Assembly (NCBI RefSeq): GCF_000219125.1
Contig: NZ_AFGF01000049.1
Location: 62,001-126,000, forward strand
Origin: Acetonema longum DSM 6540
GTDB taxonomy: Bacteria; Bacillota; Negativicutes; Sporomusales; Acetonemataceae
Direction: 5' to 3'
DNA: 64,000 bases
Part shown: positions 43,486-59,957 of the stretch, in pieces
Layout: every line of letters begins with the position of its first letter
Position numbering within the stretch: position 1 is the stretch's first letter
Notes under the pieces: generated by a model
The model's input: the letters and a program-made list of their open reading frames with translations, nothing else
Told to the model about the DNA's origin: nothing
Databases searched by the model: none
Position numbers and translations under genes: made by a program

Positions 43486-46400
43486 GTTTCAATCCATATG
43501 GGGCATGATGTTTTCCTTGATGGTATCCTTGATCATTTCGTTGTTCAATCCACGTGCCCGTACAGGCACGACAGGGCACACTGCTGTGGTCCACCCGGCT
43601 CCCTGTTTCAATCCACGTGCCCATACGGGGCACGACTGAGGCATATCTGGTTCCAACTGGCCTTTCTATGGTTTCAATCCACGTGCCCATACAGGGCACG
43701 ACAATACTCGGGACACAACCCCTCACCCCGGCTTTGTTTCAATCCACGTGCCCGTACAGGGCACGACGCAATCACTTTGTTTCGTTGCTTATTCTGAGAA
43801 GTTTCAATCCACGTGCCCGTACAGGGCACGACCCAAAACGACATTCTTGAGCGCAAAGTTCCAGGGGTTTCAATCCACGTGCCCGTACATGGCACGACGG
43901 GCATGCTGCGAGACATGCTCCAATTATCATACGTTTCAATCCACGTGCCCGCACAGGGCACGACAAAAAACTTTCGGGTAGCTGCACGAACGAAAGTAGT
44001 TTCAATCCACGTGCCCGTACAGGGCACGACCCTTTTGCCGGTACTCGTATTCCGGATTTCCTTTGGTTTCAATCCACGTGCCCGTACAGGGCACGACGCG
44101 AACGGTTTCGGCGGCTACCTTTTCATTAGCAGTTTCAATCCACGTGCCCGTACAGGGCACGACGGCAATAGCATCAGTGATCGGTTCTCTGCCGGATGTT
44201 TCAATCCACGTGCCCGTACAGGGCACGACTATTTTTGTATTAAATAACGAAGGTCTTTGCAAGGTTTCAATCCACGTGCCCGTACAGGGCACGACAAGCT
44301 GGAAAACGCCGACCTGCGGCGACAGGTAGTTTCAATCCACGTGCCCGTACAGGGCACGACGACTGGCCGTAAGAATCGCCATTATCCGAAATTGTGTTTC
44401 AATCCACGTGCCCGTACAGGGCACGACAATAAGCCGTTTAGGGTGGCGTGGTGATGATGCAGGTTTCAATCCACGTGCCCGTACAGGGCACGACGAGAGC
44501 GTGACAGACAGACCGACAAAAGCACATGTTTCAATCCACGTGCCCGTACAGGGCACGACAAAACCATCCTGGTCCCCGGCCATTGATATCAGTTTCAATC
44601 CACGTGCCCGTACAGGGCACGACCTGATGGCGCAAGTCATTGAAGTTCTGGCGAAGGTTTCAATCCACGTGCCCGTACAGGGCACGACATGACTTTAAGA
44701 CAGTTCTACGCCTATTGGAATGTTTCAATCCACGTGCCCGTACAGGGCACGACACGCCGCAAAATGGCTCCAGGTGATTGAGGACGTGTTTCAATCCACG
44801 TGCCCGTACAGGGCACGACACGATATGCCCACACTGCAGTCGAGGTATTTTACCGGTTTCAATCCACGTGCCCGTACAGGGCACGACACAAACATCGTAG
44901 GGATCAATGGTTTTTCCAATGTTTCAATCCACGTGCCCGTACAGGGCACGACTAAAACGTATTTACATACCCGGCACGGTAAAATGTTTCAATCCACGTG
45001 CCCGTACAGGGCACGACTGATCTACTAAAACAGATGCATTCGTTCATGCTGTTTCAATCCACGTGCCCGTACAGGGCACGACCTTAAATATGCGGAGGCG
45101 GTAAAGATGACAAAGGTTTCAATCCACGTGCCCGTACAGGGCACGACATGATTCATAAAACATATGTTTCATTATATATATGTTTCAATCCACGTGCCCG
45201 TACAGGGCACGACGTTGCAGGGCATTATCAATGGATTTAACATGACGTTTCAATCCACGTGCCCGTACAGGGCACGACAACTTGATTAGTTTATGTGACC
45301 AATGCCACAGTTTCAATCCACGTGCCCGTACAGGGCACGACGATCTCCATCAGGTGGGAGGATGGGAGAGTATTTGTTTCAATCCACGTGCCCGTACAGG
45401 GCACGACCAGAAAGCACTATATCCGGCATTCACGACACCGCCAGTTTCAATCCACGTGCCCGTACAGGGCACGACCGGCGCTCCAAGCCTGTCAGCCCAC
45501 TGCTCCGCCGCGTTTCAATCCACGTGCCCGTACAGGGCACGACCCCCCTGGTGGATTCCAGCACTCTGGCTATCGTCATCGTTTCAATCCACGTGCCCGT
45601 ACAGGGCACGACTGTAGCCCAAGCTATCAAAGCCCGTCCGATTGAGTTTCAATCCACGTGCCCGTACAGGGCACGACATGGGCAGAATCGCATAAATTAA
45701 AGGCGGACGTTCGGTTTCAATCCACGTGCCCGTACAGGGCACGACTCAATCATGAATAATTCACCCCCTTCATGGAGTGTTTCAATCCACGTGCCCGTAC
45801 AGGGCACGACCGAAGTTGACCGCAAAAAGCTGTTTAATGTCCTGTTTCAATCCACGTGCCCGTACAGGGCACGACCCTGATGTCGCTGGAAGGCGAAGCG
45901 TCGTAATGGTTTCAATCCACGTGCCCGTACAGGGCACGACGCACTAACCGCATGGTAGCCTACGTCAACGACAAGTTTCAATCCACGTGCCCGTACAGGG
46001 CACGACCGGCCCAAAGACTTGTTCGAGTTTGAAGAGGCTAGTTTCAATCCACGTGCCCGTACAGGGCACGACGTATAACGCTATTGCCTTGGCCGTATGT
46101 CTTACGGTTTCAATCCACGTGCCCGTACAGGGCACGACCTGTGGATACACAGTCTTCTTTAAAAAATGAGGTTTCAATCCACGTGCCCGTACAGGGCACG
46201 ACTCCTTGAAACGTGCCAATTCATCAGCAATGTAAGTTTCAATCCACGTGCCCGTACAGGGCACGACCGGTTGGCCGAGTTAAGGAGGTGTTCATTGTGA
46301 TGTTTCAATCCACGTGCCCGTACAGGGCACGACGAAATTCTCAAAGAATATGCGGATGGTAAAAAGTTTCAATCCACGTGCCCGTACAGGGCACGACCCC

Positions 46401-47916
46401 GTCCACCGCCGGATGTCAGACCCATTTTTTCGTTTCAATCCACGTGCCCGTACAGGGCACGACCTCCCATGGCATTCGATATTAAGCTTCCTAAATTTGT
46501 GTTTCAATCCACGTGCCCGTACAGGGCACGACCGACCCAGGGCCAACAAATCCAGATACATCAGCGTTTCAATCCACGTGCCCGTACAGGGCACGACCCG
46601 TTCTTGTTCAAGCAAGGCAAGGTACTCTGCCAGTTTCAATCCACGTGCCCGTACAGGGCACGACGTCAGCGGACTTACCGTGACCATGGATGAGCTGGTT
46701 TCAATCCACGTGCCCGTACAGGGCACGACTCGCTATGCCTGGCTTTACTCCAATATCTTCGAGTTTCAATCCACGTGCCCGTACAGGGCACGACCAGTGC
46801 GGATTTTTTTATTTCGCTTATTTGCTTGTTTCAATCCACGTGCCCGTACAGGGCACGACAACTTCGTTTGCAGTATACAGCACCTCATCTATGTTTCAAT
46901 CCACGTGCCCGTACAGGGCACGACGGTTCAGCGGCGAACGCAGAGGAATTTTATTAGAAGTTTCAATCCACGTGCCCGTACAGGGCACGACTTCGCTATG
47001 CCTGGCTTTACTCCAATATCTTCGAGTTTCAATCCACGTGCCCGTACAGGGCACGACGCAATCTACTTGATAAAACTAATTAATCTTAGGCGTTTCAATC
47101 CACGTGCCCGTACAGGGCACGACGGCGGGTGACAGGGGTACTGAAATGATGATACCGTTTCAATCCACGTGCCCGTACAGGGCACGACATCATTATACCT
47201 TCCTCCAATTTTCGGTTGATTGGGTTTCAATCCACGTGCCCGTACAGGGCACGACCAGAAAAAAGATACGGAAAACTAAAGAAAACCGGGTTTCAATCCA
47301 CGTGCCCGTACAGGGCACGACATCCATCTTGCCAGGTGAGCGGCCGATACGTTTTTTGTTTCAATCCACGTGCCCGTACAGGGCACGACATTATTTTTAT
47401 TCTAATCGCCTTACCTTCCAGGGTTTCAATCCACGTGCCCGTACAGGGCACGACCGGCACGATGGAATGAGTATTAAATATTAGGAGGTTTCAATCCACG
47501 TGCCCGTACAGGGCACGACGGCCGGGAAAAAGTTGATCATCGACAGCGTCAACGGTTTCAATCCACGTGCCCGTACAGGGCACGACGCCGGCCCCAAATC
47601 CAGCATGGCCTTTCCGATAGGTTTCAATCCACGTGCCCGTACAGGGCACGACGGGCCAAAGACGGAGCGTCGCGGAGATCATTTTACAGTTTCAATCCAC
47701 GTGCCCGTACAGGGCACGACTGCGTTGACGACAGCCTTAAAACCCTGGGAATGGTTTCAATCCACGTGCCCGTACAGGGCACGACTATAGACCACGATGT
47801 TGTGGTCATCACTAAGCGGTTTCAATCCACGTGCCCGTACAGGGCACGACTAATACGCGGGATCAATGTATTCCAGTACACAGGGTTTCAATCCACGTGC
47901 CCGTACAGGGCACGAC
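43486..47916 (-). CRISPR. Type I-C CRISPR array 1 (about 68 repeats, 67 spacers)
   Basis: 32-base repeat, on the plus strand GTTTCAATCCAC, then stem GTGCCC, loop GTACA, stem GGGCAC, then GAC; spacers are 33-36 bases. Read on the minus strand the repeat ends GTGGATTGAAAC, the type I-C form, so transcription runs leftward from the leader at 47917. The left end is the old, trailer end: a truncated repeat at 43486, a damaged one at 43540-43572, then variants at 43605 (loop ATACG) and 43671 (ATACA). Other variants occur at 43867 and 43933. One spacer (47189-47223) matches 56298-56332 exactly, and one spacer occurs twice. Confidence 0.98.
47189..47223 (-). other. Self-matching spacer in array 1
   Basis: This 35-base spacer is identical over its full length to 56298-56332, the ribosome site and start codon of the DUF3892-like gene next to cas3. 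In crRNA orientation the target flank is GATT before the first spacer base C. The expected TTC motif is therefore present but shifted one base into the spacer. Confidence 0.9.
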
Positions 47917-48082: not shown

Positions 48083-48373
48083 TCAAAGCATTAAAACCCC
48101 TTCCGGATCATATCCAACCTTAGCGCCAAAATGTTCTACTCTGTTTTTCCAATTGCTTCCCAGAAAATAATAGCGCAAACTGTCAGTATTTGGATCGACA
48201 ATACTTTCTAATCGGTGTTTTAATTCGGCAAACTGTGTAGGATCGACCAAACATTCAAATACCGAATTTTGAACACGCTGCCCATAATTGACACATTGCT
48301 TAGCTACTCGGCGAAGCCGACTCTTGCCTAAGTCGGTTGTCACATTCACATCATAGGTAATCAGCACTAACAT
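48083..48373 (-). CDS. cas2: Cas2
   Basis: A 96-residue protein, MLVLITYDVNVTTDLGKSRL with the typical first-strand Asp, and QNSVFECLVDPTQF. With Cas1 it forms the spacer-integration complex. It is the last cas gene, ten bases after cas1, and abuts the leader. A 27-codon remnant of a second cas2 lies at 60126-60206. Confidence 0.96.
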   Translation of the reverse strand: MLVLITYDVNVTTDLGKSRLRRVAKQCVNYGQRVQNSVFECLVDPTQFAELKHRLESIVDPNTDSLRYYFLGSNWKNRVEHFGAKVGYDPEGVLML

Positions 48374-48383
48374 GCCTATGACC

Positions 48384-49415
48384 TCACTTCCAGAAAAATG
48401 GCGGATAATCTTCCAGATCGCCCCTCAGGTGCCTAGCCAAGAGCAGGGCTTGGACATAAGGAACAAGTCCCAACGGAATTTTCTCTTCTAAATAAGGATG
48501 GGTGATTTCCTCTTGTTTTCGTTTTTGCCAGGAAGTAAGTACTTCTTTGCGTGTTTCATCGCTCATGATGACAGCGCCGTTTTCTTTCACGACAAAGCCG
48601 GCTTCAGAAATCTGATTGCGGTTGATTAGCGTTACTGCCAATCGATCCGCAAAGTGAGGCCGTAGTTCTTCCATAACATCCAGTGCGAGGCTTTGTCGTC
48701 CGGGCCGGTCTCGATGCAAAAAACCAACCTGTGGATCCAGACCGACACTTTCCAGAGCTGCTGCAACTTCATGAGAGAGCAGTGTGTACAGGAATGACAG
48801 CAAAGCATTGACCCGATCTGTCGGCGGTCGTCTGTTACGGCCGAAAATGGGAAAGCCGTCTTTTTGACTGACTATTAATTGATTGAAGTTAGAAAAATAA
48901 AGATGCGCCGCTTCTCCTTCAATCCCTCGTACTGTATTGCCATCCAATGCTTTTTCTAGTCGCTCCGGCATCCTCGCCAAACACGCCATAGCATACTCCA
49001 ACGCCTTATTGTCGACAACCTTCCCGTGGTCTCGGAGGGCGCGATGCAATACCGCCCTGCTGTTGATAATCTTTGCTGCAATAAATCGCCGTGACAACCG
49101 AACGGATATCTCCTTATCATCGGCCCAGCGATATTGCGTCCGTCGGAGTAAAACGTTGCCTGAAACATTACCTGTTATACGCCCCATAAACTTGCCGTAT
49201 TCGTTTAAAAATGAAAGAGCTACCCCGCGTTCGCAGCACAAATACATAAGCTTGGGACTGGCTCCGGCAAAGCCAAAACAGACAATACCCTCCAAGTTAT
49301 GCACTGGCACTCGAAACCGAATTTCATTATCTACTTTCACTAACACATTCTCGCCATCGCAGGCTAAATAGGCATCCGGTAAGGTAACATACAGCGTATT
49401 CAGAAGTCGCCTCAA
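48384..49415 (-). CDS. cas1: Cas1 (type I-C)
   Basis: A 343-residue integrase; motifs include TLYVTLPDAYLACDGENVLV near the start and GFLHRDRPGRQSLALDVMEE with the metal-site His and the Asp/Glu following. I place the start at the TTG overlapping the cas4 stop (TTGA), with GGAGGT upstream. This gives the usual I-C length; the frame is open 27 codons further up inside cas4. Confidence 0.95.
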   Translation of the reverse strand: MRRLLNTLYVTLPDAYLACDGENVLVKVDNEIRFRVPVHNLEGIVCFGFAGASPKLMYLCCERGVALSFLNEYGKFMGRITGNVSGNVLLRRTQYRWADDKEISVRLSRRFIAAKIINSRAVLHRALRDHGKVVDNKALEYAMACLARMPERLEKALDGNTVRGIEGEAAHLYFSNFNQLIVSQKDGFPIFGRNRRPPTDRVNALLSFLYTLLSHEVAAALESVGLDPQVGFLHRDRPGRQSLALDVMEELRPHFADRLAVTLINRNQISEAGFVVKENGAVIMSDETRKEVLTSWQKRKQEEITHPYLEEKIPLGLVPYVQALLLARHLRGDLEDYPPFFWK

Positions 49416-50122
49416 GAATGATCTACCTCCACATGGCACATGCGCGCCAAATAGCTTTCTACTGAACGATGACGCAACATCCATTGCGGCTGACATTGTT
49501 CAACCAGAGAGCACTGAGAGCAGTGTTTCCCCTTCTGCGGCTTTGGAGTGATTTCTTCCCTGGCAAGCTGATGCATGCGTGTGGCCAATTCAACAGTATG
49601 CTGCCGCAGAGCTATATCGAAGAAAACCGATTCACGATGTTTAGTTTGTCCATAGAAAAGAAAGCCGGACGGGATAGAGATTACCATCATTTCTTCCAAA
49701 GCCATAGCTTGAGCGCAAAGCTGAACAGCATCTCGATCATCAGGTTTGGGACGGCCTCGCTTATACTCGACCGGAACAGGCCTCCACCAGCCCTCACGCT
49801 TTTCCAGCCGGCACATTTCACCGCTCACAACTTCCTGACTCTGGTGAAATTCCACCACATCGGCAACACCCCGCAGGCCAATCTGATACGAAACTAATGG
49901 CATGGCCCGTATAACCCGCAGAGTTTTACGGGTTTCATCCTTATAGGGATCATCTGCTCGCTCATGGAGATGCTTGCCCTCTACGGTCCGGACATTCTCC
50001 GCCCACACTTGTTCCAAGTGTATAAGAGCCCACTGTCGCTCACAAAAGGCGATATGTTGGATACCTGAAAGTAAAAGAAGATCATCGTCGGAATATTTCT
50101 TTTCAGTTTCAAAGTTTCTCAA
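49412..50122 (-). CDS. cas4: Cas4 exonuclease
   Basis: A 236-residue RecB-type nuclease used in PAM selection and prespacer trimming. The iron-sulfur Cys are FCERQW near the start and [11 protein letters not shown] near the end. The nuclease core is [11 protein letters not shown] with [12 protein letters not shown]. It starts with TTG inside the last codons of cas7 and overlaps cas1 at its end. Confidence 0.95.
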
Positions 50123-51020
50123 TGAATGTCACGCCTTGCGGAATATCGTCTGTGCTCACAGAAATAACATAATCACTGAAATCTCTTGCTGGTTTGCCAG
50201 TATCTTTTCGCTTTATTTTTATAGCGTCAAACAGCTTCTGAACCGGAGCATCCCCCATCTTAGACGCATGTTCAAAAACAAACAGCTTTCTTGTTCCCAT
50301 TAACCCTCGGGCAGCCGAACGATCATGCTCGAACATTTTTTCAAGCGCTTCCCAAAGAAGTTCCAGATCCTCTTGTGAAAAACCGGTCTGATTTGCCAAC
50401 GGTGCTGAAATAAAACCATGGGCGCGATAAAGTCCATAGGGAACAGTAAACTTCCGGCCCATTGTACGATTATCGCCACCTTGCTTTTCCGCCTCAGCTT
50501 CTGTTGCAACCGCCATACGAGTAATGCTATGCTCAAGGGACACAATAGGTTCTACCGAGCGTGCAAAGGTAAACTGCACTGGGCCGCGAACTTGTCCGGC
50601 ATTAGCTCCCGTTGATAGAACAGCTCCAAATGTTCTAATGTCAAAAAAGTTTTGACACATAAATTGCTTGGCCCGATCCACCTCTTTCCCTTGACCCTGC
50701 CCGGGCTTATTTCGCTTTTTACCATCTGCCGAATCGGTCGGAGGTTGTTGCAAATCAATATTTAAGCTAGCATAAGCCTGCTCAATCGTATTGTTTAATA
50801 TAGATTTTTCTTTAACGAAAATTCCATAAGGAGCTTTTTCTTCTTGTTTTAGGCTAACATAATTCCTTACTTTTCTTTTTAAACAAACATCGGTAACCAG
50901 CCCATGTCCTGTTTCTGCATCTACACGGGGTAAATTGCCCGCATCCGGATCTCCATTAGGATTTCCGTCTTTAACGTCAAATAATATGACAAAATCATAA
51001 CGTTTTTGAATGGTACTCAT
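50109..51020 (-). CDS. cas7: Cas7c (Csd2) backbone subunit
   Basis: A 303-residue RAMP protein forming the crRNA-covering backbone of the I-C Cascade. It starts [20 protein letters not shown] and contains [13 protein letters not shown] and [17 protein letters not shown], all typical of Csd2. It is encoded between cas8c and cas4. Confidence 0.96.
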
Positions 51021-51048
51021 ATTTTACACCCTTTCTAAATTTTTTTAT

Positions 51049-52776
51049 TCATTTGTCACTTTCCGCAACACCTTTGCTAGTGAAAAAATCTTGCCGCTGA
51101 TGATAATAGCCGATGGCGAAACGTCCTTGCTCGTGCAAATCAAGCTGGGCGGGAAAGTCTTTTAAATTTCCGATGATTTCACCCAATAACCGTTCAAAAT
51201 TCACTACTCTTCCTTTATTGTCGAGTTTTGCAAGATGGTGATTTTTAAGGCGAAGCAGATTCGTAAAGACAGTTACCGGGGTTGCACAGGCGGCACCGTA
51301 AAAACGCTCTCGGATAGTAGCATTGATTCCTGGATTCGCCTCTTCTTGAATCTTTTCCAGTGTGGCAAATAACCTTCCCAGTTGATAACCGATTGAGGGT
51401 TGTGAAATATCCAATTCCATCTGAACCTCCCTTTGGTTTTGATCAGGATAAAATTGATAATAACGATTTAAATAGGCTTTAATCAACGCCGCCCGAACTG
51501 GTTTAACCCTGTTTTCCGTATCGCTGCGGATTCGCCGCAACACGGCTTGCAGCAATGTAGCCGGATAAGGCATTCCTGTCAAAATGGATCGCATGAAATC
51601 CCCGGCAAGATTCGGCGGAATATTTTCGCTCTTATCTTGGGTAGCGATATTTACTAAGATGCGCCAAATAGAATAATACTCCGGCTCTCTAGGTGGTTTG
51701 ACAATGGCAAAATCCTTAAAGTATTGATGAATCCGAACGGCAATTTCGGCAATGGTTCCAATCTGCCAAAAGCGAACAGCAATGCGAGCGGCATTAGGGG
51801 CCAGCCCCAAGATGTAGAATGGGGTCTTGCCGTCATCTTCCCGATAAGCGCCGCTATGAATTGACTCAAATAATGCCTTAACATTTTGCGTGCCTGCATC
51901 AGGATTGTCTTTTTCCGGTTCTTCAAAAAAGGAAGAGAACTCGGATTCAAAGGATGATTGCTTTTTTGACCAAAAGACAGTGGAGGCATCTCCGATCAAA
52001 AGACGTTGTTTAGAATCTCTTCCCAGCAGTGTATTGATAGCAGTTGTATAAGAAAATTCAGCCTCAGCGCCTACCGGTGCATTAAACCCTTGCTCTTTCC
52101 CGTATGACTTAAAGGCATCAAGATTAAAAGAAACAATATTAGCTCCTGCAGTTTGAGCACCATACACCCCCTTAATGGATGTATGAAGCACTTTGATCCT
52201 CGCATTCTTCCCTGTTACCAGGCAAGTTCCTGATATATCATTTGAGCTTTGGCTTGTTGAAGAAAGCCTTGATACAACATCAGGATGGCGACATATTAAA
52301 AATGAGTCTGCACTCATTCGAAAAGAGAGATTGGGGTTTGATGCAGAGATTTCTTGCCAGCATTCCTCTTGTGAGAGTCTTTCTTCTGTAACGTTTGTAA
52401 GGAAAGCAATGACTGCTTGGACAACTTTAATATCCCCAAGTTCATTTGTTAAACGGTCAATAAAAGCATTCTTTTGTTTAATAGCACGTTCATTGTTTCC
52501 TTTTGTAGCAATCCCCAATACATATCCGGCATTTTCCCAAAGAAGATTAGCGGCAATCCCCGATGTCTTTTTTTCTGCTTGAGGTACCAGAAAGGCTTTT
52601 GCTCTTTTTTTCTTTCCTTCACCTTCCCGCGTATCCTCAATTTGCATCAAATTCCCCGCATGATCTAAGACAATAATAAAAGGTATTTCTTTCTTTTCCC
52701 AGCCTTCTGGCGCAATATCGCTCTCAGGATCGGATGCCTTACGGTCATAATATTCCTTCAACGCCTGCAGTATCAT
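51049..52776 (-). CDS. cas8c: Cas8c (Csd1) large subunit
   Basis: A 575-residue type I-C large subunit that recognises the PAM. In I-C systems an internal start within cas8c also yields the small subunit Cas11c, which may apply here but was not located. It starts MILQALKEYYDRKAS and contains CLVTGKNARIKVLHTSIKGV. Its ATG overlaps the cas5 stop by four bases (ATGA). Confidence 0.95.
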   Translation of the reverse strand: MILQALKEYYDRKASDPESDIAPEGWEKKEIPFIIVLDHAGNLMQIEDTREGEGKKKRAKAFLVPQAEKKTSGIAANLLWENAGYVLGIATKGNNERAIKQKNAFIDRLTNELGDIKVVQAVIAFLTNVTEERLSQEECWQEISASNPNLSFRMSADSFLICRHPDVVSRLSSTSQSSNDISGTCLVTGKNARIKVLHTSIKGVYGAQTAGANIVSFNLDAFKSYGKEQGFNAPVGAEAEFSYTTAINTLLGRDSKQRLLIGDASTVFWSKKQSSFESEFSSFFEEPEKDNPDAGTQNVKALFESIHSGAYREDDGKTPFYILGLAPNAARIAVRFWQIGTIAEIAVRIHQYFKDFAIVKPPREPEYYSIWRILVNIATQDKSENIPPNLAGDFMRSILTGMPYPATLLQAVLRRIRSDTENRVKPVRAALIKAYLNRYYQFYPDQNQREVQMELDISQPSIGYQLGRLFATLEKIQEEANPGINATIRERFYGAACATPVTVFTNLLRLKNHHLAKLDNKGRVVNFERLLGEIIGNLKDFPAQLDLHEQGRFAIGYYHQRQDFFTSKGVAESDK

Positions 52777-53507
52777 CCCCGCACCTCCACTTCCCTGCGG
52801 TCTGCATTCACTGCCCCATTTTCAATCCAGGCCCGGAAAAATAAAGGTATCGGGTCATTTTCATCTTTTTCAAAATCCATATCATACAGCATAAACCCTA
52901 GATCCCGCGTTTCTTCAATCAACTCAACCGGCTCCTTCTGGGGATCTACCAGCCTGAAATCACAGGCAAATTCCCGGCAACCTAAATAAGGCCGGTGAAA
53001 GCACTGGCCTTTTTTTGCCCGCCGTTCAAACATGGCTGCATATTTTGCCTCGGTTTCATCCAAGCGTATTTTTTCCGCCAGTTCTTGCTCATCTGCCCAA
53101 AATTCAGGCGAGACTGAATGATTTGCTTTCCTTTGATCCGGGGGGATAAAGTCGAAATAGCCATAAATACGATACCTGACATCCCTCAGAAAGAGTCCGG
53201 CCCGTTGTTGGCGTTCATCTTCAATAAAAATACCCATAGGTTCGCCTAATGCGCCAGCCATCTGCTTTGCTGTAGGATTAGGCATCTTTCTCCCCACTTC
53301 ATTACGGCGAACAGAAATCCATTTAATCGGGTTAATCACTTCGATTTTTGTTACGTTCCAGCGAATGGCCGGTTTCCAGAGAATGGACTCAAAGATAGCT
53401 CTGGCTGCCGATGGCGTCATCACATCGTAACTTACCCGTTCCACTTTCATTTCCGGACGGGTGAAACAAGCATAGTCGCCCCATACTTCTAAACACCAGT
53501 TATGCAT
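52773..53507 (-). CDS. cas5c: Cas5c (Cas5d) crRNA-processing endoribonuclease
   Basis: A 244-residue RAMP protein that, in I-C systems without Cas6, cuts the repeat 3' of its stem-loop to leave an 11-nt 5' handle and then caps it. It begins WCLEVWGDYACFTRPEMKVE and contains YDVMTPSAARAIFESILW. Here the predicted handle is UGGAUUGAAAC, which also occurs in the solitary crRNA-like gene at 56653-56763. AAGGAG precedes the ATG. Confidence 0.95.
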   Translation of the reverse strand: MHNWCLEVWGDYACFTRPEMKVERVSYDVMTPSAARAIFESILWKPAIRWNVTKIEVINPIKWISVRRNEVGRKMPNPTAKQMAGALGEPMGIFIEDERQQRAGLFLRDVRYRIYGYFDFIPPDQRKANHSVSPEFWADEQELAEKIRLDETEAKYAAMFERRAKKGQCFHRPYLGCREFACDFRLVDPQKEPVELIEETRDLGFMLYDMDFEKDENDPIPLFFRAWIENGAVNADRREVEVRG

Positions 53508-53522
53508 TTTATCAACTCCTTC

Positions 53523-55787
53523 CTAAATAATAAATGAATCTGGATCAAAAGGGGTTTCATCAACTAAAAGACCTGTATCCCTGGAATAATCCAGATTAGT
53601 TGCCAGTGCAAAAATGTTAGGCTGCACTTCTTCAATTGCTCCTCGCTGTTGCATATGATAAAAATCAGTATTGTAGATATTCACGGTATATCGTTGAATC
53701 TTCCTCATCAACCAACGGTCCGGCCCTCTTGATTTTAGTAAATCAATCAATTTTTCACTTTCATCATACCGGACAATAATTGTTTTTAGCTGAGAATCAT
53801 CGATTATACGGAATATTTCCGCTGCCGTTCGAAAATAAATACTGCATTCTTGGGAATCAGGCTTTAGATACCTAAGAATCTCTTTTTCATCCAGCGAATT
53901 AGCCTTCCAATATAATTCTGAGAAATATCGTTCATATACAGCATGATCTGACGGATCCTGACACCCGCTCAAAAATATGCTGCGAGTCGTTTCTTCCGCT
54001 TTGCGAAGAATCCCTATGGGAGCTTTTTTCGGCGCATTAAAGACAATGACCTGTCCCAGTCCGGATAGTTTACCCTCCCGGTTGCAGCGGCCTGCTGCCT
54101 GAGCAATAGAATCCAACCCGGCAAGAGCCCGGTAAACGACCGGGAAATCCATGTCCACACCTGCTTCCACAAGCTGAGTGCTAATCACCCGAACCGGCTC
54201 TTTATTTTTTAATTTTTGTTTGATCTTCTCGATAATTTCAGTGCGATGCCGGCCGCACATCAAAGCCGATAAATGAAACGTTCCCTCAGGCATTAAACCA
54301 TGCAGTGTACGGCAGCTTTTTCGGTCGGAAACAATGCACAATACTTGTTCATATTGCTTTAATGCGGCCGCAATATCTTCCCAAACGGATGGAGTGCGAA
54401 TATCTTCCGGTAATTGAACCTGATACCGTTTTAGTGAATCATAAAGTGATTTTACCTCTTCCCGATTCCCCATGATCTCTTTGATATTCTTCAACCCCGG
54501 AAACGATTTTCCATCCACTATTCGCTCACCGAAGGCCGGTTGGGTTGCGGTGGAAATGATAAAAGTAACATGATAATGTGCTACCAGCAGTTGCATGGTC
54601 TCAAGAATAGGGGCTAAATATTCAACCGGCACTAATTGGGCTTCATCTAACACCACTACTGAATTTACAATATTGTGCAGCTTACGGCAGCGGCTGGACT
54701 TAGCGGCGAAAAGCGATTCGAAAAATTGCACCGTAGTAGTAACTATGATGGGAGCATCCCAATTTTCTGAAGCCAAGCGAGATTTTACAGTAGAATCATC
54801 TTCGTCCAAACTGGAATGATGTTCTACTACTTGATCGGCTCCCACCACTGAACGGAATACATCGGCATTTTGCTCGATAATGCTGGTGTAAGGGATTACA
54901 TAAATAATCCGGTCCAAGTCATGCTTTTTAGCATGCTCAAGGCCAAATGCAAGGCCTGACAATGTTTTTCCACCGCCTGTCGGCACTGAAAGAGAAAAAA
55001 TGCCCTGTGGCTTTTGAGCCATTTGTATACACTTTTCCCGGATACTTCTTCGAATTGCATTAACTTTCGTATTTTCCGCTGTTTCATCTAGTTTCTTACT
55101 GAATTGATGAAATCGTTCCAAGAGTTCCGGGATAGAACAATAGTCACCTCTGATACCGGCCTGAGCGTCGTCCATATAAGATTCCGTATCCAAGAAATCC
55201 GCATCCACCAGGCATGAGTACAGCATCCTGATCCACAAAGACACATCCAGTCCTCTTGAAAATTTCCAGGGAGGCGTTCCCGGCTTTGAGGATTGCATTT
55301 TATCTAAAATAAATCCAGCAACATTATTTAAATCCTTTACATGATCCTCCTGAAACTGCAACGAGGATTGTCCCGCCCCTTCGGCGCTGGACCAATCCGG
55401 CAAACCTGCATGATGCCCGGCAATACAATATGCCAATAACCTTCCAGGTCCTTTTCCTAAGATATCTTCCGTCAGTCTTGCTCCGTGAATAGCATGAGGT
55501 ACTTTCCCTGATTTCCCTTCTAAATGCGCTTCTTCATCATAACCACTTTTAGCACCGATATATTTTTGCCATTCTGGCCTGCCTTTGCCTGCATCATGAG
55601 CCAATCCGGCTATCTTTCCCCATTTTCCGGAATGAAACTTGGCGGCAAAAGTTTCTGCTAATCCTGCGGTGCCATCCAAGTGTTGAGATAATAAATGCGG
55701 AGAAGCCCATGTGCCGTCATCGTTTTTACGCACATGGGCGATGAATTCATTTTGACTCAAAGGAAAAAAACGATTCAATAAACTCAC
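53523..55787 (-). CDS. cas3: Cas3 helicase-nuclease (HD and DExH domains)
   Basis: A 754-residue fusion of an N-terminal HD nuclease (SQHLDGTAGLAETF; GLAHDAGKGRPEW) and a superfamily 2 helicase: Walker A VPTGGGKTLSGLAF, motif II VVLDEAQLVP, motif III ISTATQ, motif VI QAAGRCNREGK. It degrades target DNA after Cascade binding. The start is GTG at 55787 or the TTG nine bases on, which has GAGGTG at better spacing. It is the first gene of the cas operon. Confidence 0.96.
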   Translation of the reverse strand: MSLLNRFFPLSQNEFIAHVRKNDDGTWASPHLLSQHLDGTAGLAETFAAKFHSGKWGKIAGLAHDAGKGRPEWQKYIGAKSGYDEEAHLEGKSGKVPHAIHGARLTEDILGKGPGRLLAYCIAGHHAGLPDWSSAEGAGQSSLQFQEDHVKDLNNVAGFILDKMQSSKPGTPPWKFSRGLDVSLWIRMLYSCLVDADFLDTESYMDDAQAGIRGDYCSIPELLERFHQFSKKLDETAENTKVNAIRRSIREKCIQMAQKPQGIFSLSVPTGGGKTLSGLAFGLEHAKKHDLDRIIYVIPYTSIIEQNADVFRSVVGADQVVEHHSSLDEDDSTVKSRLASENWDAPIIVTTTVQFFESLFAAKSSRCRKLHNIVNSVVVLDEAQLVPVEYLAPILETMQLLVAHYHVTFIISTATQPAFGERIVDGKSFPGLKNIKEIMGNREEVKSLYDSLKRYQVQLPEDIRTPSVWEDIAAALKQYEQVLCIVSDRKSCRTLHGLMPEGTFHLSALMCGRHRTEIIEKIKQKLKNKEPVRVISTQLVEAGVDMDFPVVYRALAGLDSIAQAAGRCNREGKLSGLGQVIVFNAPKKAPIGILRKAEETTRSIFLSGCQDPSDHAVYERYFSELYWKANSLDEKEILRYLKPDSQECSIYFRTAAEIFRIIDDSQLKTIIVRYDESEKLIDLLKSRGPDRWLMRKIQRYTVNIYNTDFYHMQQRGAIEEVQPNIFALATNLDYSRDTGLLVDETPFDPDSFII

Positions 55788-55974
55788 CTCAGTTTAAGGG
55801 TACTTCCTGAATAGTGGAATCCTGTCGAAAATTACATTACTATACTATTGATTTGAGTTTCACACTTTTTCCATGAACTCCTGCATCTGGATCGAAAAAT
55901 CCTATATTTTATAAAATTCTGCGTTTCCTTTTGAAAATAAGTAGAGAAATTTACTAACCCCTCGCCGGGTAGAG

Positions 55975-56023: not shown

Positions 56024-56302
56024 TCATTCCCGCGGCAATTTCAGCAGATTATCATGCGGAGAATCATTTGCTTGAGATCGCACATATTTTTCATCATAAG
56101 CACTAAGTGCCGGTAAAAGGTCAGGGAAAGGAGCAATATTCACTTGAATTGAACGAGGATTTTGCACCAAACAATCATAAACTGCTGCCTTTTTGTAAAA
56201 GCCCGGATTGATACAATCAGCTACATAAATTTCATCAATTTCCACTAAGTTATTTGAGAAATGACAACCCGATTTCATTTTTATTTTTGTTGCTTTCATC
56301 AT
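56024..56302 (-). CDS. DUF3892-like small protein upstream of the cas operon
   Basis: A 92-residue protein starting MMKATKIKMKSGCHF. Its C-terminus KYVRSQANDSPHDNLLKLP resembles the end of DUF3892 proteins (an RS...NNL..LP pattern); the match is judged by eye. GGAGG eight bases before the first of two adjacent ATGs supports this start; an earlier in-frame ATG at 56359 also has a GGAG. The start region is an exact match to an array 1 spacer, and a crRNA-like gene lies 350 bases away on the other strand. It may be CRISPR-controlled or CRISPR-controlling. Function unknown. Confidence 0.7.
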   Translation of the reverse strand: MMKATKIKMKSGCHFSNNLVEIDEIYVADCINPGFYKKAAVYDCLVQNPRSIQVNIAPFPDLLPALSAYDEKYVRSQANDSPHDNLLKLPRE

Positions 56303-56375
56303 TATACCTTCCTCCAATTTTCGGTTGATTGGAATCAAAAGACCTGTACATTTTTGCATTCACTCCTTTCCGCTG

Positions 56376-56404
56376 TACATAAACTGGCGGAAAGTAATTG
56401 ACAA
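56376..56404 (-). promoter_or_regulatory. Candidate promoter of the DUF3892-like gene
   Basis: On the minus strand TTGTCA, a 17-base spacer, then TATGTA. The -35 is good and the -10 weak. The start would be near 56369. On the opposite strand the same bases include TTGACA (56398-56403) and TAAAGT 18 bases later, so a plus-strand promoter is also possible. Confidence 0.4.
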
Positions 56405-56561
56405 TGCATACAATTCTGCAGTAAAGTATAGCAAACAGCTTATTAATAGTATGCATGTCTTACTTGCCTTGTCCTGATAGAGGGGATCAGCCTCTGTTGG
56501 GGCAATTTTCTTTTAATTCTCAAGATTATTGTATTATACTTCCTCTTTTTTGTAAAGTATA

Positions 56562-56599
56562 TATAATATTTCTTTTTGAATAATAATATATCATTCGAA
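56562..56599 (-). other. Candidate target site of the crRNA-like RNA
   Basis: On the minus strand a TTC motif (56597-56599) is followed by GAATGATATATTATTATT. The pseudo-spacer begins GAATGTAATATCAGTATT. Bases 1-5, 8-11, 13 and 15-18 agree. Two of the four mismatches in this stretch, 6 and 12, are positions that type I Cascade flips out. The region is AT-rich, so chance similarity cannot be excluded. Confidence 0.35.
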
Positions 56600-56611
56600 A
56601 TATAGAAATAA

Positions 56612-56644
56612 TTGATTTGGATTTTGGATAAACTATGCTATATT
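56612..56644 (+). promoter_or_regulatory. Promoter of the crRNA-like gene
   Basis: TTGGAT (56617-56622), a 16-base spacer and TATATT (56639-56644) place the start near 56651. An alternative pairing is TTGATT (56612-56617) with TATGCT (56634-56639). Either puts the transcript start at the pseudo-repeat hairpin. Confidence 0.55.
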
Positions 56645-56652
56645 ACTATTGT

Positions 56653-56763
56653 CAGATGAAACATCTGTGGATTGAAACGAATGTAATATCAGTATTTCAA
56701 AAAAGAACTAACACAGAACTAAAAACAGACACGGTTAATCAACCGTGTCTGTTTTTAGTTCTG
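56653..56763 (+). ncRNA. Solitary crRNA-like RNA (CreR-like) with type I-C handle
   Basis: Reading along the plus strand: a perfect stem-loop CAGATG-AAA-CATCTG (56653-56667); TGGATTGAAAC (56668-56678), identical to the 11-nt handle Cas5c would leave from the array repeats; a 35-base pseudo-spacer starting GAATGTAATATC (56679-56713), the same length as real spacers; then a perfect 23-base inverted repeat with loop AATC (56714-56763) containing a GC stem and T-run, a strong terminator. The stem sequence differs from the array repeats, so only structure and handle are kept. This matches the design of CreR-type RNAs that guide Cascade to repress a nearby promoter. It runs opposite to both arrays and the cas genes. 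Confidence 0.72.
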
Positions 56764-56962
56764 TCAGGCCGTCGAAAAGCGGGGTTGGGAGATCGTTTAT
56801 CTCTCCCAGTCTTCCGCAATCACTTGTTTCTTGGAAAAATCTGTTCCAAATCGACTCTTAGTCATTTAAACTATTTTGGTCAAATGCCTTACAATATGCA
56901 ATGTATGCCTTGCTGTCCCATCTGAGTAACCTTTAAACTGCCCTTTTATACTAAATTCAACC

Positions 56963-59957
56963 GTTTTCCTTGATCACGGGGATGACCATCGCTGGCCAGC
57001 GGCAGTTGTCGCCAGTCGCTGTTTCAATCCACGTGCCCACACGGGGCACGACTTTATCCAGCGGCGATTAGTGGCTTATCGCCAATGTTTCAATCCACGT
57101 GCCCACACGGGGCACGACGGTTTCAGGTTGGTAATGTCCAGACGCTTGAAGGTTTCAATCCACGTGCCCACACGGGGCACGACTGCTATTCCAGTTCGCT
57201 TTTTCCGCGTCTGTTGCGTTTCAATCCACGTGCCCACACGGGGCACGACGTTATGTGCGCGGCGGAGTACTGGACGAAGAATTGTTTCAATCCACGTGCC
57301 CACACGGGGCACGACAGGCGGTTACGGAAACGATGTTTGTATATCCGGGTTTCAATCCACGTGCCCACACGGGGCACGACGATAGATACAAACACGTCCC
57401 GTGTGCCTAAATTATGTTTCAATCCACGTGCCCACACGGGGCACGACGCATAGGTTAAGGTGGTGTAAAGGTCATCTTCTTGTTTCAATCCACGTGCCTA
57501 CACGGGGCACGACATCTGCGCTAATTTAAGACGGTTTGCCGTTGCAAGTTTCAATCCACGTGCCCACACGGGGCACGACATCAGGGGGGGAGAAAAGGGC
57601 TGGATGGTCAAGTTTCAATCCACGTGCCCACACGGGGCACGACTACATCGACCCCGAACTCTACGCCCTAATGACCGTTTCAATCCACGTGCCCACACGG
57701 GGCACGACAAGGATGGCAAACGTTTATGATAAATGGTCAAAAGTTTCAATCCACGTGCCCACACGGGGCACGACGTATGTTTTGCTATACCAAAAATCCA
57801 TTTTATAGGTTTCAATCCACGTGCCCACACGGGGCACGACGAAAGGAGCAGGCGGCGGAAGTAGCGATACATGAAGTTTCAATCCACGTGCCCACACGGG
57901 GCACGACGCAATCACAGCCTTAAACAGCGCCGTCCAGGACCTGTTTCAATCCACGTGCCCACACGGGGCACGACACGGAAGGCATTATGCAGGCGCAAAG
58001 TCTGGAGTTTCAATCCACGTGCCCACACGGGGCACGACTCTTATCGGCACATACCCATGAGTTGTCTTGCTGGTTTCAATCCACGTGCCCACACGGGGCA
58101 CGACGCAGGCCCCCATAAATCACCTCTACTGCTGCAGTGTTTCAATCCACGTGCCCACACGGGGCACGACCTGCTGTGGTGCACTCTAAATATGCCCAGG
58201 ATGGTTTCAATCCACGTGCCCACACGGGGCACGACATACGCTGGAGTTGTCGCCGCCTTTCTCCACGGTTTCAATCCACGTGCCCACACGGGGCACGACT
58301 TTCGCGGTAAATGCCGCCAAATACTCAAAAGAAGTTTCAATCCACGTGCCCACACGGGGCACGACCTGATGGGCCAGATGCTTCCCGGAGGGCTTGATGC
58401 GTTTCAATCCACGTGCCCACACGGGGCACGACAGAAACTGGGGTTGAACCTAGAATGGATTAAAGGTTTCAATCCACGTGCCCACACGGGGCACGACATG
58501 GCTGCTTTGCTGAACTAAAAATGCTGCTTGCCAGTTTCAATCCACGTGCCCACACGGGGCACGACTAGGGTCGCCATCTTTTCTGCCGTCTCCAGGCAGC
58601 GTTTCAATCCACGTGCCCACACGGGGCACGACACCTTGCAGGCACGGGATAATCACCTGATTGATATTGTTTCAATCCACGTGCCCACACGGGGCACGAC
58701 TTTCGCCCCTCTTTCTTGTTTTTTCTCATGATAGGTTTCAATCCACGTGCCCACACGGGGCACGACGTCAAACTGCTGCCACGCCTTATCCGTATCGAGT
58801 TTCAATCCACGTGCCCACACGGGGCACGACGAGCCTACCTGGGCAGTACGCTTATCCATGAGGTTTCAATCCACGTGCCCACACGGGGCACGACCAAAGC
58901 TGTTAAGCCGCTTGATATTCGTCTTATTGTTTCAATCCACGTGCCCACACGGGGCACGACTGGCGTAAGAGGAGTTGGGATGACCACAAATATAGTTTCA
59001 ATCCACGTGCCCACACGGGGCACGACGCCGCCCTTTGGGGTGGTATTTCTTTATGTTGTCGTTTCAATCCACGTGCCCACACGGGGCACGACGGGAGCTC
59101 AAGCAGGCGACGCAGCCTGACACACTGGTTTCAATCCACGTGCCCACACGGGGCACGACCATAAACGTGACGCAATTCTGCAGCGGGATAACTACGTTTC
59201 AATCCACGTGCCCACACGGGGCACGACTGGATGGTGGTTTGATTATTCGCCAACGGAAAAACGTTTCAATCCACGTGCCCACACGGGGCACGACCTGCAG
59301 CCACACCACCGGCCACACCGGTTATTATAGTTTCAATCCACGTGCCCACACGGGGCACGACGTAGTTTGATCATAAGATCACCTCATTTTCAAAACGGTT
59401 TCAATCCACGTGCCCACACGGGGCACGACGAGGCATGCTGCGGGACATCGCCCAGTTTTCATAAGTTTCAATCCACGTGCCCACACGGGGCACGACAGAT
59501 AGTCGCTTAAGTTTACGTCGATCATAGAGGTTTCAATCCACGTGCCCACACGGGGCACGACGGAAGGAAAAAAGAATAAACATTACCTATAACTGGTTTC
59601 AATCCACGTGCCCACACGGGGCACGACGATATAAACCGCTGTTGGGCAGTTGTATTCATTTGTTTCAATCCACGTGCCCACACGGGGCACGACCATGTTA
59701 AAATTTTCGTCAACCTCCACCAGTTCAGTTTCAATCCACGTGCCCACACGGGGCACGACCTCCTGGCTTATATCGAGCAGGTTGAGCAGGAGCGGTTTCA
59801 ATCCACGTGCCCACACGGGGCACGACTGCCGCCGTGGATAATCTGGTTTTTACTTACGCGTTTCAATCCACGTGCCCACACGGGGCACGACGCCGTATGC
59901 TCTGATAAGTCTTCGCTAAACGCATGTTTCAATCCACGTGCCCACACGGGGCACGAC
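56963..59957 (-). CRISPR. Type I-C CRISPR array 2 (about 46 repeats, 45 spacers)
   Basis: The 32-base repeat is the same as in array 1 except for the loop: GTTTCAATCCAC, GTGCCC, ACACG, GGGCAC, GAC. 45 full repeats run from 57021; a shortened, degenerate one at 56963-56986 with a 34-base spacer marks the old end. One repeat (57482) has a T in the stem. The leader lies to the right (59958-60125), so it reads leftward like array 1. No cas genes follow the leader, only a cas2 fragment, so the array depends on the cas operon at 48-56 kb. Confidence 0.97.

Follow-up and report, generated by a model that had tools for sequence, protein, structure and literature searches.

The window (the whole 64,000-nucleotide stretch of Acetonema longum DSM 6540 DNA analyzed here) carries a cas operon flanked by two CRISPR arrays, with a small DUF3892-like gene and a solitary degenerate repeat, the psi-repeat, between cas3 and array 2 (Table 1). 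All seven Cas proteins have Pfam matches, their open reading frames are intact and the repeats fit subtype I-C, so the locus is of type I-C; a preliminary description of this DNA had likewise taken the CRISPR system to be intact. No cas6 was found within the operon. On the minus strand the array repeats read GTCGTGCCC-TGTAC-GGGCAC-GTGGATTGAAAC and the leader side faces cas2; this reading of the repeats, the leader placement and the complete type I-C cas set give the minus strand as the crRNA sense. Type I-C systems use TTC and TTT as PAMs (PMC10865793).

Table 1 Features of the type I-C locus and its upstream region (positions are those of the window)
Feature	Position	Strand	Details
CRISPR array 1	43736..47916	-	crRNA-sense repeat GTCGTGCCCTGTACGGGCACGTGGATTGAAAC
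Array 1 spacer, 11th counting from leader end	47189..47223	- (crRNA sense)	CCAATCAACCGAAAATTGGAGGAAGGTATAATGAT
Type I-C cas operon: cas3, cas5, csd1 (cas8c), cas7, cas4, cas1, cas2	48083..55787	-	Pfam matches
DUF3892-like gene, 92 aa, intact	56024..56302	-	Weak Pfam match; upstream of cas3
Canonical TTC PAM adjoining self-protospacer, opposite strand	56295..56297	+	crRNA-sense GAA; pattern expected of flipped integration
Self-protospacer over RBS and start codons of DUF3892-like gene	56298..56332	-	crRNA-sense 5′ flank GATT (56333-56336), no PAM
Promoter-like site of DUF3892-like gene	56528..56556	-	TTTACA-17-TACAAT; promoter scan
Partial psi-spacer target	56562..56596	-	TTC PAM 56597-56599
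Promoter-like site of psi-repeat RNA	56617..56644	+	TTGGAT-16-TATATT, extended -10 TGC; sequence reading
Solo degenerate type I-C repeat (psi-repeat)	56651..56678	+	GTCAGATGAAACATCTGTGGATTGAAAC; array-repeat fold, 11-nt 3′ tail
Spacer-like guide (psi-spacer)	56679..56713	+	GAATGTAATATCAGTATTTCAAAAAAGAACTAACA
24-bp perfect hairpin, T-rich arm	56715..56765		Likely terminator of psi-repeat RNA and, on the other strand, of array 2
CRISPR array 2	57021..59957	-	crRNA-sense repeat GTCGTGCCCCGTGTGGGCACGTGGATTGAAAC

One 35-nt spacer of array 1 (47189-47223) is identical to the minus-strand target 56298-56332 at 35 of 35 bases, with no mismatch (E ~4e-10 in the 4.3-Mb genome). In a repeat-pair comparison the identity is 100% over 36 nt (47188-47223 and 56297-56332), one of the 36 being the last repeat base. 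The target includes the ribosome site (GGAGGAAGG) and both ATG codons (ATGATG) of the 92-aa reading frame. Its flanks in the crRNA sense are TTTTGATT on the 5′ side, ending in TTGATT, and GAAAGC on the 3′ side, so that the canonical crRNA-sense PAM is absent, the adjoining bases being GATT, and a TTC lies on the other side. The match, its position over the ribosome site and start codons, and the reading of the flank as GATT followed by C had all been given in the preliminary description, and our ORF reading and comparisons agree with it on each of these points; it had overlooked the GAA flank, eight further self-matching spacers and the solo repeat unit at 56651.

These further spacers came to light when the 102 spacers extracted from the arrays were searched against the whole 4.3-Mb genome and the flanks of the matches were read out. 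Nine spacers, including 47189-47223, match their own genome. Two of the nine fall in a prophage on contig C106, both beside a 5′-TTC, one perfectly and the other at every base but the last. The seven outside the prophage are all without a 5′-TTC; six have their targets in apparent chromosomal genes (glmS-like, Spo0A-like, sigma-factor-like, polynucleotide-kinase-like, an HD-type protein and a transporter, as named by sequence reading) and the seventh is 56298-56332. Exactly adjoining the 3′ end, GAA is present in four of these seven, namely 47189-47223 and three other chromosomal ones; with the frequency of GAA measured as 0.018, four or more such flanks among seven would arise by chance with a probability of 3.7e-6. 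Since GAA 3′ of a protospacer is TTC on the opposite strand, it is the signature of uptake at a correct PAM followed by back-to-front integration. Flipped spacers are known from type I-F acquisition, where their non-consensus PAMs let self-spacers escape interference, and there, as here, the PAM complement lies at the far side and the near-side PAM is apparently random; the type I-F flips were seen by acquisition sequencing, whereas ours are deduced from four retained type I-C chromosomal spacers (PMC5059440).

We conclude that spacer 47189-47223 was most likely integrated flipped. It would have been taken from the cell's own chromosome at a proper TTC PAM (plus strand, 56295-56297) and inserted in reverse. 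Its crRNA then faces GATT, no known PAM of the subtype, so Cascade would not license Cas3 and the spacer would survive, persisting as a harmless passenger. This account has position-exact flanks in four of the seven cases, calls for no special mechanism, and is on these sequence grounds the most likely one. The preliminary description had instead proposed uptake in the normal orientation with a shift of one base, the last C of the PAM becoming spacer base 1. The flank GATT and a spacer that begins with C do give a TTC overlapping the spacer by one base, and for this single spacer flip and slip are not fully separable (TT-C overlaps its other end too), but for the reverse orientation the PAM on the other flank is exact and needs no shift, and the three other GAA-flanked self-spacers show no slip at all, which makes a slip here improbable. 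Its wider point, that the non-canonical flank accounts for tolerance of the match, is upheld by the seven PAM-less self-spacers, and only the one-base slip as the cause probably gives way to the flip. Spacer 47189-47223 is most likely a tolerated and inert self-acquisition and, taken alone, is ordinary.

That every self-spacer outside the prophage is PAM-less implies that interference was active and purged those that had a PAM. Another explanation would be that self-matching is tolerated since interference is off, through cas inactivation or an anti-CRISPR of the prophage, and the two spacers that match the C106 prophage beside 5′-TTC (one perfect, one with a last-base mismatch) fit it. We consider it rather unlikely all the same: the cas ORFs are all intact, the seven PAM-less spacers speak for purging, and no known anti-CRISPR family is among the top 25 families listed for 53 prophage ORFs, which may encode one all the same. 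The two PAM-bearing matches may reflect an anti-CRISPR or a recent arrival of the prophage; the anti-CRISPR idea of the preliminary description is relevant to the prophage and not to spacer 47189-47223.

The C106 prophage itself spans ~40-96 kb (L117-L119) and encodes a DNA methyltransferase, SSB, a YopX-like protein and other phage-type genes. It is targeted by one spacer from each array (matches at L107 4034-4069 and L113 5153-5184), and is a good place to seek a type I-C anti-CRISPR. Sequenced phages were rejected as a source of the spacers, since they gave no match to either array. The plasmid hits are few, 65-74% identical and mostly long, and look like array-to-array matches and not like hits of spacers.

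The DUF3892-like gene runs in the same direction as cas3, 236 bp from it and without a clear terminator between them. Its match to DUF3892 (PF13031; E 6e-5, 23.9 bits against a cut-off of 22.3) is confined to the last 22 residues, which correspond to profile positions 50-71 of 71. Relatives with 47-64% protein identity are present in ~10 of the ~800 genomes searched, none of them near type I-C cas genes; a conserved pairing of this gene with cas genes was rejected for that reason, and the combination of a DUF3892-like gene with a psi-repeat occurs in one genome only. The preliminary description had raised the question of whether the small gene occurs on phages or plasmids, and its relatives do. 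More distant ones (~44%), annotated as DUF3892, are carried by plasmids of Enterococcus, Pediococcus and Lactiplantibacillus, mobilizable and conjugative ones among them, amid transposases in the two that were inspected, and a viral contig has one relative (54%) next to tail-like genes. Because its relatives sit on plasmids and in a viral contig, the gene is, as far as such relatives can tell, an accessory one associated with mobile elements.

The same relatives could be taken to mean that the spacer was acquired from an invading plasmid or phage with a near-identical DUF3892-like gene, and that the chromosomal match is incidental. The known relatives, however, are at most 64% identical in protein and are not expected to share 35 bases of the ribosome-site region, no phage matches array 1 and no plasmid hit can be assigned to a single spacer; such an origin has perhaps one chance in ten.

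One study describes DUF3892 as having a fold that also occurs in dsRNA-binding domains and in ribosome hibernation factors (PMC12419801). It is no better than a guess that the 92-aa protein might be toxic through ribosome or RNA binding. The structure model of this protein has a pLDDT of 40, too low for a fold search, the PDB yielded no credible relative by sequence, and an Rfam scan around the gene gave nothing credible. Elsewhere, DUF3892-like relatives adjoin a similar-looking ORF without a Pfam match (at 1012-1404 of L116; L010 and L012 have comparable ORFs upstream), which suggests a two-gene mobile module whose second member is missing in the window. At 56398-56505 a plus-strand promoter-like sequence, TTGACA-18-TAAAGT, is followed by a terminator-like hairpin; a possible product is an antisense RNA covering the 5′ leader region of the DUF3892-like transcript.

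The psi-repeat lies upstream of this gene, in a unit 320 bases from the self-protospacer. It reads GTC-AGATG-AAA-CATCT-GTGGATTGAAAC and, like the array repeat, starts with GTC; its 12 final bases are also those of the array repeat. Its stem sequence is wholly replaced and still pairs, so that it folds like the array repeat with an 11-nt tail. The 28-nt pattern has a single match in the whole genome. The psi-spacer behind it matches its target at 23 of 35 bases and at 9 of the 10 seed positions, the mismatches within the first 13 bases being at 6, 7 and 12 (GAATG-T-AATAT-C-AGTAT against GAATG-A-TATAT-T-ATTAT, with TTC before the target). By seed and by total matches this is the best psi-spacer target in the 64-kb window, and the same seed and total beside a TTC, in the stretch between cas3 and the psi-repeat unit, were reached in 0 of 20000 mononucleotide and 1 of 20000 dinucleotide shuffles. 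Just 5 bp separate the end of the target from the -35 of the putative DUF3892-like promoter, in a region that has no more promoter-like sites than expected from shuffles. The promoter-like site of the psi-repeat RNA is below the scan threshold and ends just ahead of the psi-repeat, at which transcription starting ~7 nt on would begin; the terminator-like hairpin lies ~40 bases past the psi-repeat.

From this arrangement the RNA of the psi-repeat unit probably lets the CRISPR complex keep the DUF3892-like gene off. The unit (56617-56765) would be transcribed and then cut by Cas5 into a crRNA-like RNA that begins at 56668 with an 11-nt 5′ handle (UGGAUUGAAAC). The psi-spacer part would guide Cascade by seed pairing beside the TTC PAM (56562-56599), and Cascade bound just upstream of the promoter-like site of the DUF3892-like gene would block transcription without cleavage, in the CreA/CreR mode. 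The seed rule established for CreA comprises positions 1-5 and 7-11 with a TTC PAM, and in the haloarchaeal system of H. hubeiense CreA lost its function with every single change made in the seed (PMC8501985); the mismatch at position 7 is therefore the weak point of the guide unit in the window, for which the longer pairing (23 of 35) may compensate. We put at about 0.7 the probability that a flipped, inert self-spacer and psi-repeat-guided control of the DUF3892-like gene together explain the locus.

A regulatory role had been suggested in the preliminary description for spacer 47189-47223 itself; its crRNA and Cascade would then sit at the ribosome site without cleavage and hold the gene down. 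The target does include the ribosome site and start codon, and the TT at -2/-1 of the flank is common to TTT, a usable type I-C PAM. Against this, the base at -3 is A, the six other chromosomal spacers have equally poor flanks and lie in unrelated genes with no sign of regulation, and a full match beside a weak PAM is expected to prime further uptake, yet no second spacer derives from the locus of the DUF3892-like gene. Regulation by this spacer is thus highly improbable as well as unneeded, the gene being apparently controlled by the RNA of the 56651-56678 unit.

Units of the same kind recur at other type I-C loci. The DNA upstream of cas3 was scanned in ~118 loci from other genomes, found with the cas3 of the window and a few of them overlapping, and at least seven of them (L030, L038, L040, L045, L071, L092 and L160) have a clear solo repeat unit whose guide matches a target beside TTC or TTT at 10 of 10 seed positions. 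The seven guides are mutually unrelated, each matches its own nearby target, and the mismatches concentrate at positions 6 and 12; in L045, for example, the guide TCTTC-T-TGTAT-G-AAATA faces TTC|TCTTC-A-TGTAT-A-AAATA. The ordinary array spacers listed for loci of this set match at only 6-8 of the 10 seed positions beside TTC. The pattern of the seven loci is the rule published for CreA (PMC8501985), and such co-variation of guide and target would be hard to explain without function. Solo handles without a convincing target are present in L078, L146, L159 and L162, and L153 is ambiguous.

What lies between target and cas3 differs among these loci: a DEDDh/DnaQ-like exonuclease gene in L030, a gene for an IS3-OrfA-like (transposase-like) HTH protein in L040, and small ORFs in L045 and L071. 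L038 has no gene there, and its target is directly upstream of the promoter-like site of cas3 itself, a CreR-like arrangement. L092 and L160 have their targets close to the unit's own promoter. The exonuclease gene stands directly before a type I-C cas3 in both L030 and L028; in L030 it has a guide-RNA target upstream, and in L028 it is apparently broken, by our reading.

It is also possible, if somewhat short of an even chance, that the RNA of the psi-repeat unit acts on the cas operon as an autorepressor of the CreR type, the DUF3892-like gene being merely the first one on the transcript. The shared direction of that gene and cas3, 236 bp apart without a clear terminator, fits this, as does L038 with its target directly upstream of the apparent cas3 promoter and no intervening gene. 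However, terminator-like hairpins appear, on sequence reading, between the small gene and cas3 in L040, L045 and L071, and in the window cas3 is preceded by a promoter-like sequence. The psi-spacer target is 0.8 kb away from cas3 on its upstream side, with the DUF3892-like gene in between. The cas3 promoter was rejected as a psi-spacer target, since the site there, at 55805, has 9 of 12 matches with position 1 mismatched and a flanking TAG, which is no PAM.

By analogy with the known CRISPR-guided regulators, the psi-repeat unit would control the DUF3892-like gene, a protein gene, through an RNA of CreA/CreR type, and would do so in a subtype that lacks cas6. CreTA of types I-B and I-F has a degenerate ectopic repeat, a TTC PAM, a target beside the promoter of a neighboring gene and a terminator after the guide (PMC8501985), each with a likely counterpart in the window. 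The repeat at 56651-56678 is such an ectopic degenerate repeat within a cas locus, in a single genome copy, and its guide has nine of the ten seed bases (position 7 mismatched) beside TTC, where seven other loci have all ten. The window differs from CreTA in being type I-C, in an operon without cas6 in which Cas5 is the expected processing enzyme, and in that the product of the putatively regulated gene is a 92-aa protein, which has homologs, and not a toxic small RNA. CrePA likewise has, within the CRISPR locus, a protein gene whose proposed repressor is a crRNA-like RNA with Cascade (PMC12737573), but CreP typically has a KilA-N domain whereas the protein in the window is DUF3892-like, a putative toxin at most, and other type I-C loci carry a DnaQ-like exonuclease or a transposase-like HTH protein. 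CreR, a crRNA-like autorepressor of cas operons (PMC12737573), is fitted by L038 with its solo repeat and its target upstream of the cas3 promoter; the window has an extra gene between target and cas3. In the open-access literature we found no paper that treats CreTA together with type I-C; other journals may hold such work.

The solo units thus indicate crRNA-like CreA/CreR elements upstream of cas3 in type I-C, with protein genes of unrelated families as cargos. A published CreTA search placed such elements around cas6 (PMC10097628), and a subtype without cas6 would escape a search so centered. If the DUF3892-like cargo is toxic, it would be a new protein class among CRISPR-regulated toxin modules, and toxicity would be the first role for a DUF known from plasmids and a phage-like contig. 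For the spacers, the result suggests a rule by which the chromosomal ones retained in this genome are those facing the wrong PAM, four of seven probably through flipped integration.

A more far-reaching reading joins the self-spacer to the guide. Type I-C CreA-type guides would silence interchangeable protein cargos (DUF3892-like, DnaQ-like exonuclease and HTH proteins) for as long as Cascade is present and no anti-CRISPR blocks it. Here CreA-guided Cascade at the promoter would have primed the uptake of a spacer from the gene so controlled, and only its flipped integration would have let this spacer survive. One of the seven non-prophage self-protospacers lies less than 500 bases from the guide target, with a chance of ~0.0016 if positions are random, and this proximity hints at guide-primed self-acquisition. 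Active spacer uptake near CRISPR loci in general would also favor the region. For this reason, and because there is neither a second local spacer nor a similar one in the tested loci of other genomes with such units, we give this reading a low probability, roughly that of the one-base slip. CreA-primed self-acquisition as a general phenomenon was rejected: in the tested loci from other genomes no array spacer matched the creA neighborhood.

Array 1 has some further peculiarities. Four successive spacers, 24-27 (45476-45713), all have matches in chromosomal genes of the cell itself. No 5′-TTC accompanies any of these matches, and the run suggests a burst of self-acquisition. The same spacer also occurs twice in the array, at 46730-46762 and 46993-47025, the two copies being four units apart and differing in length by one base.
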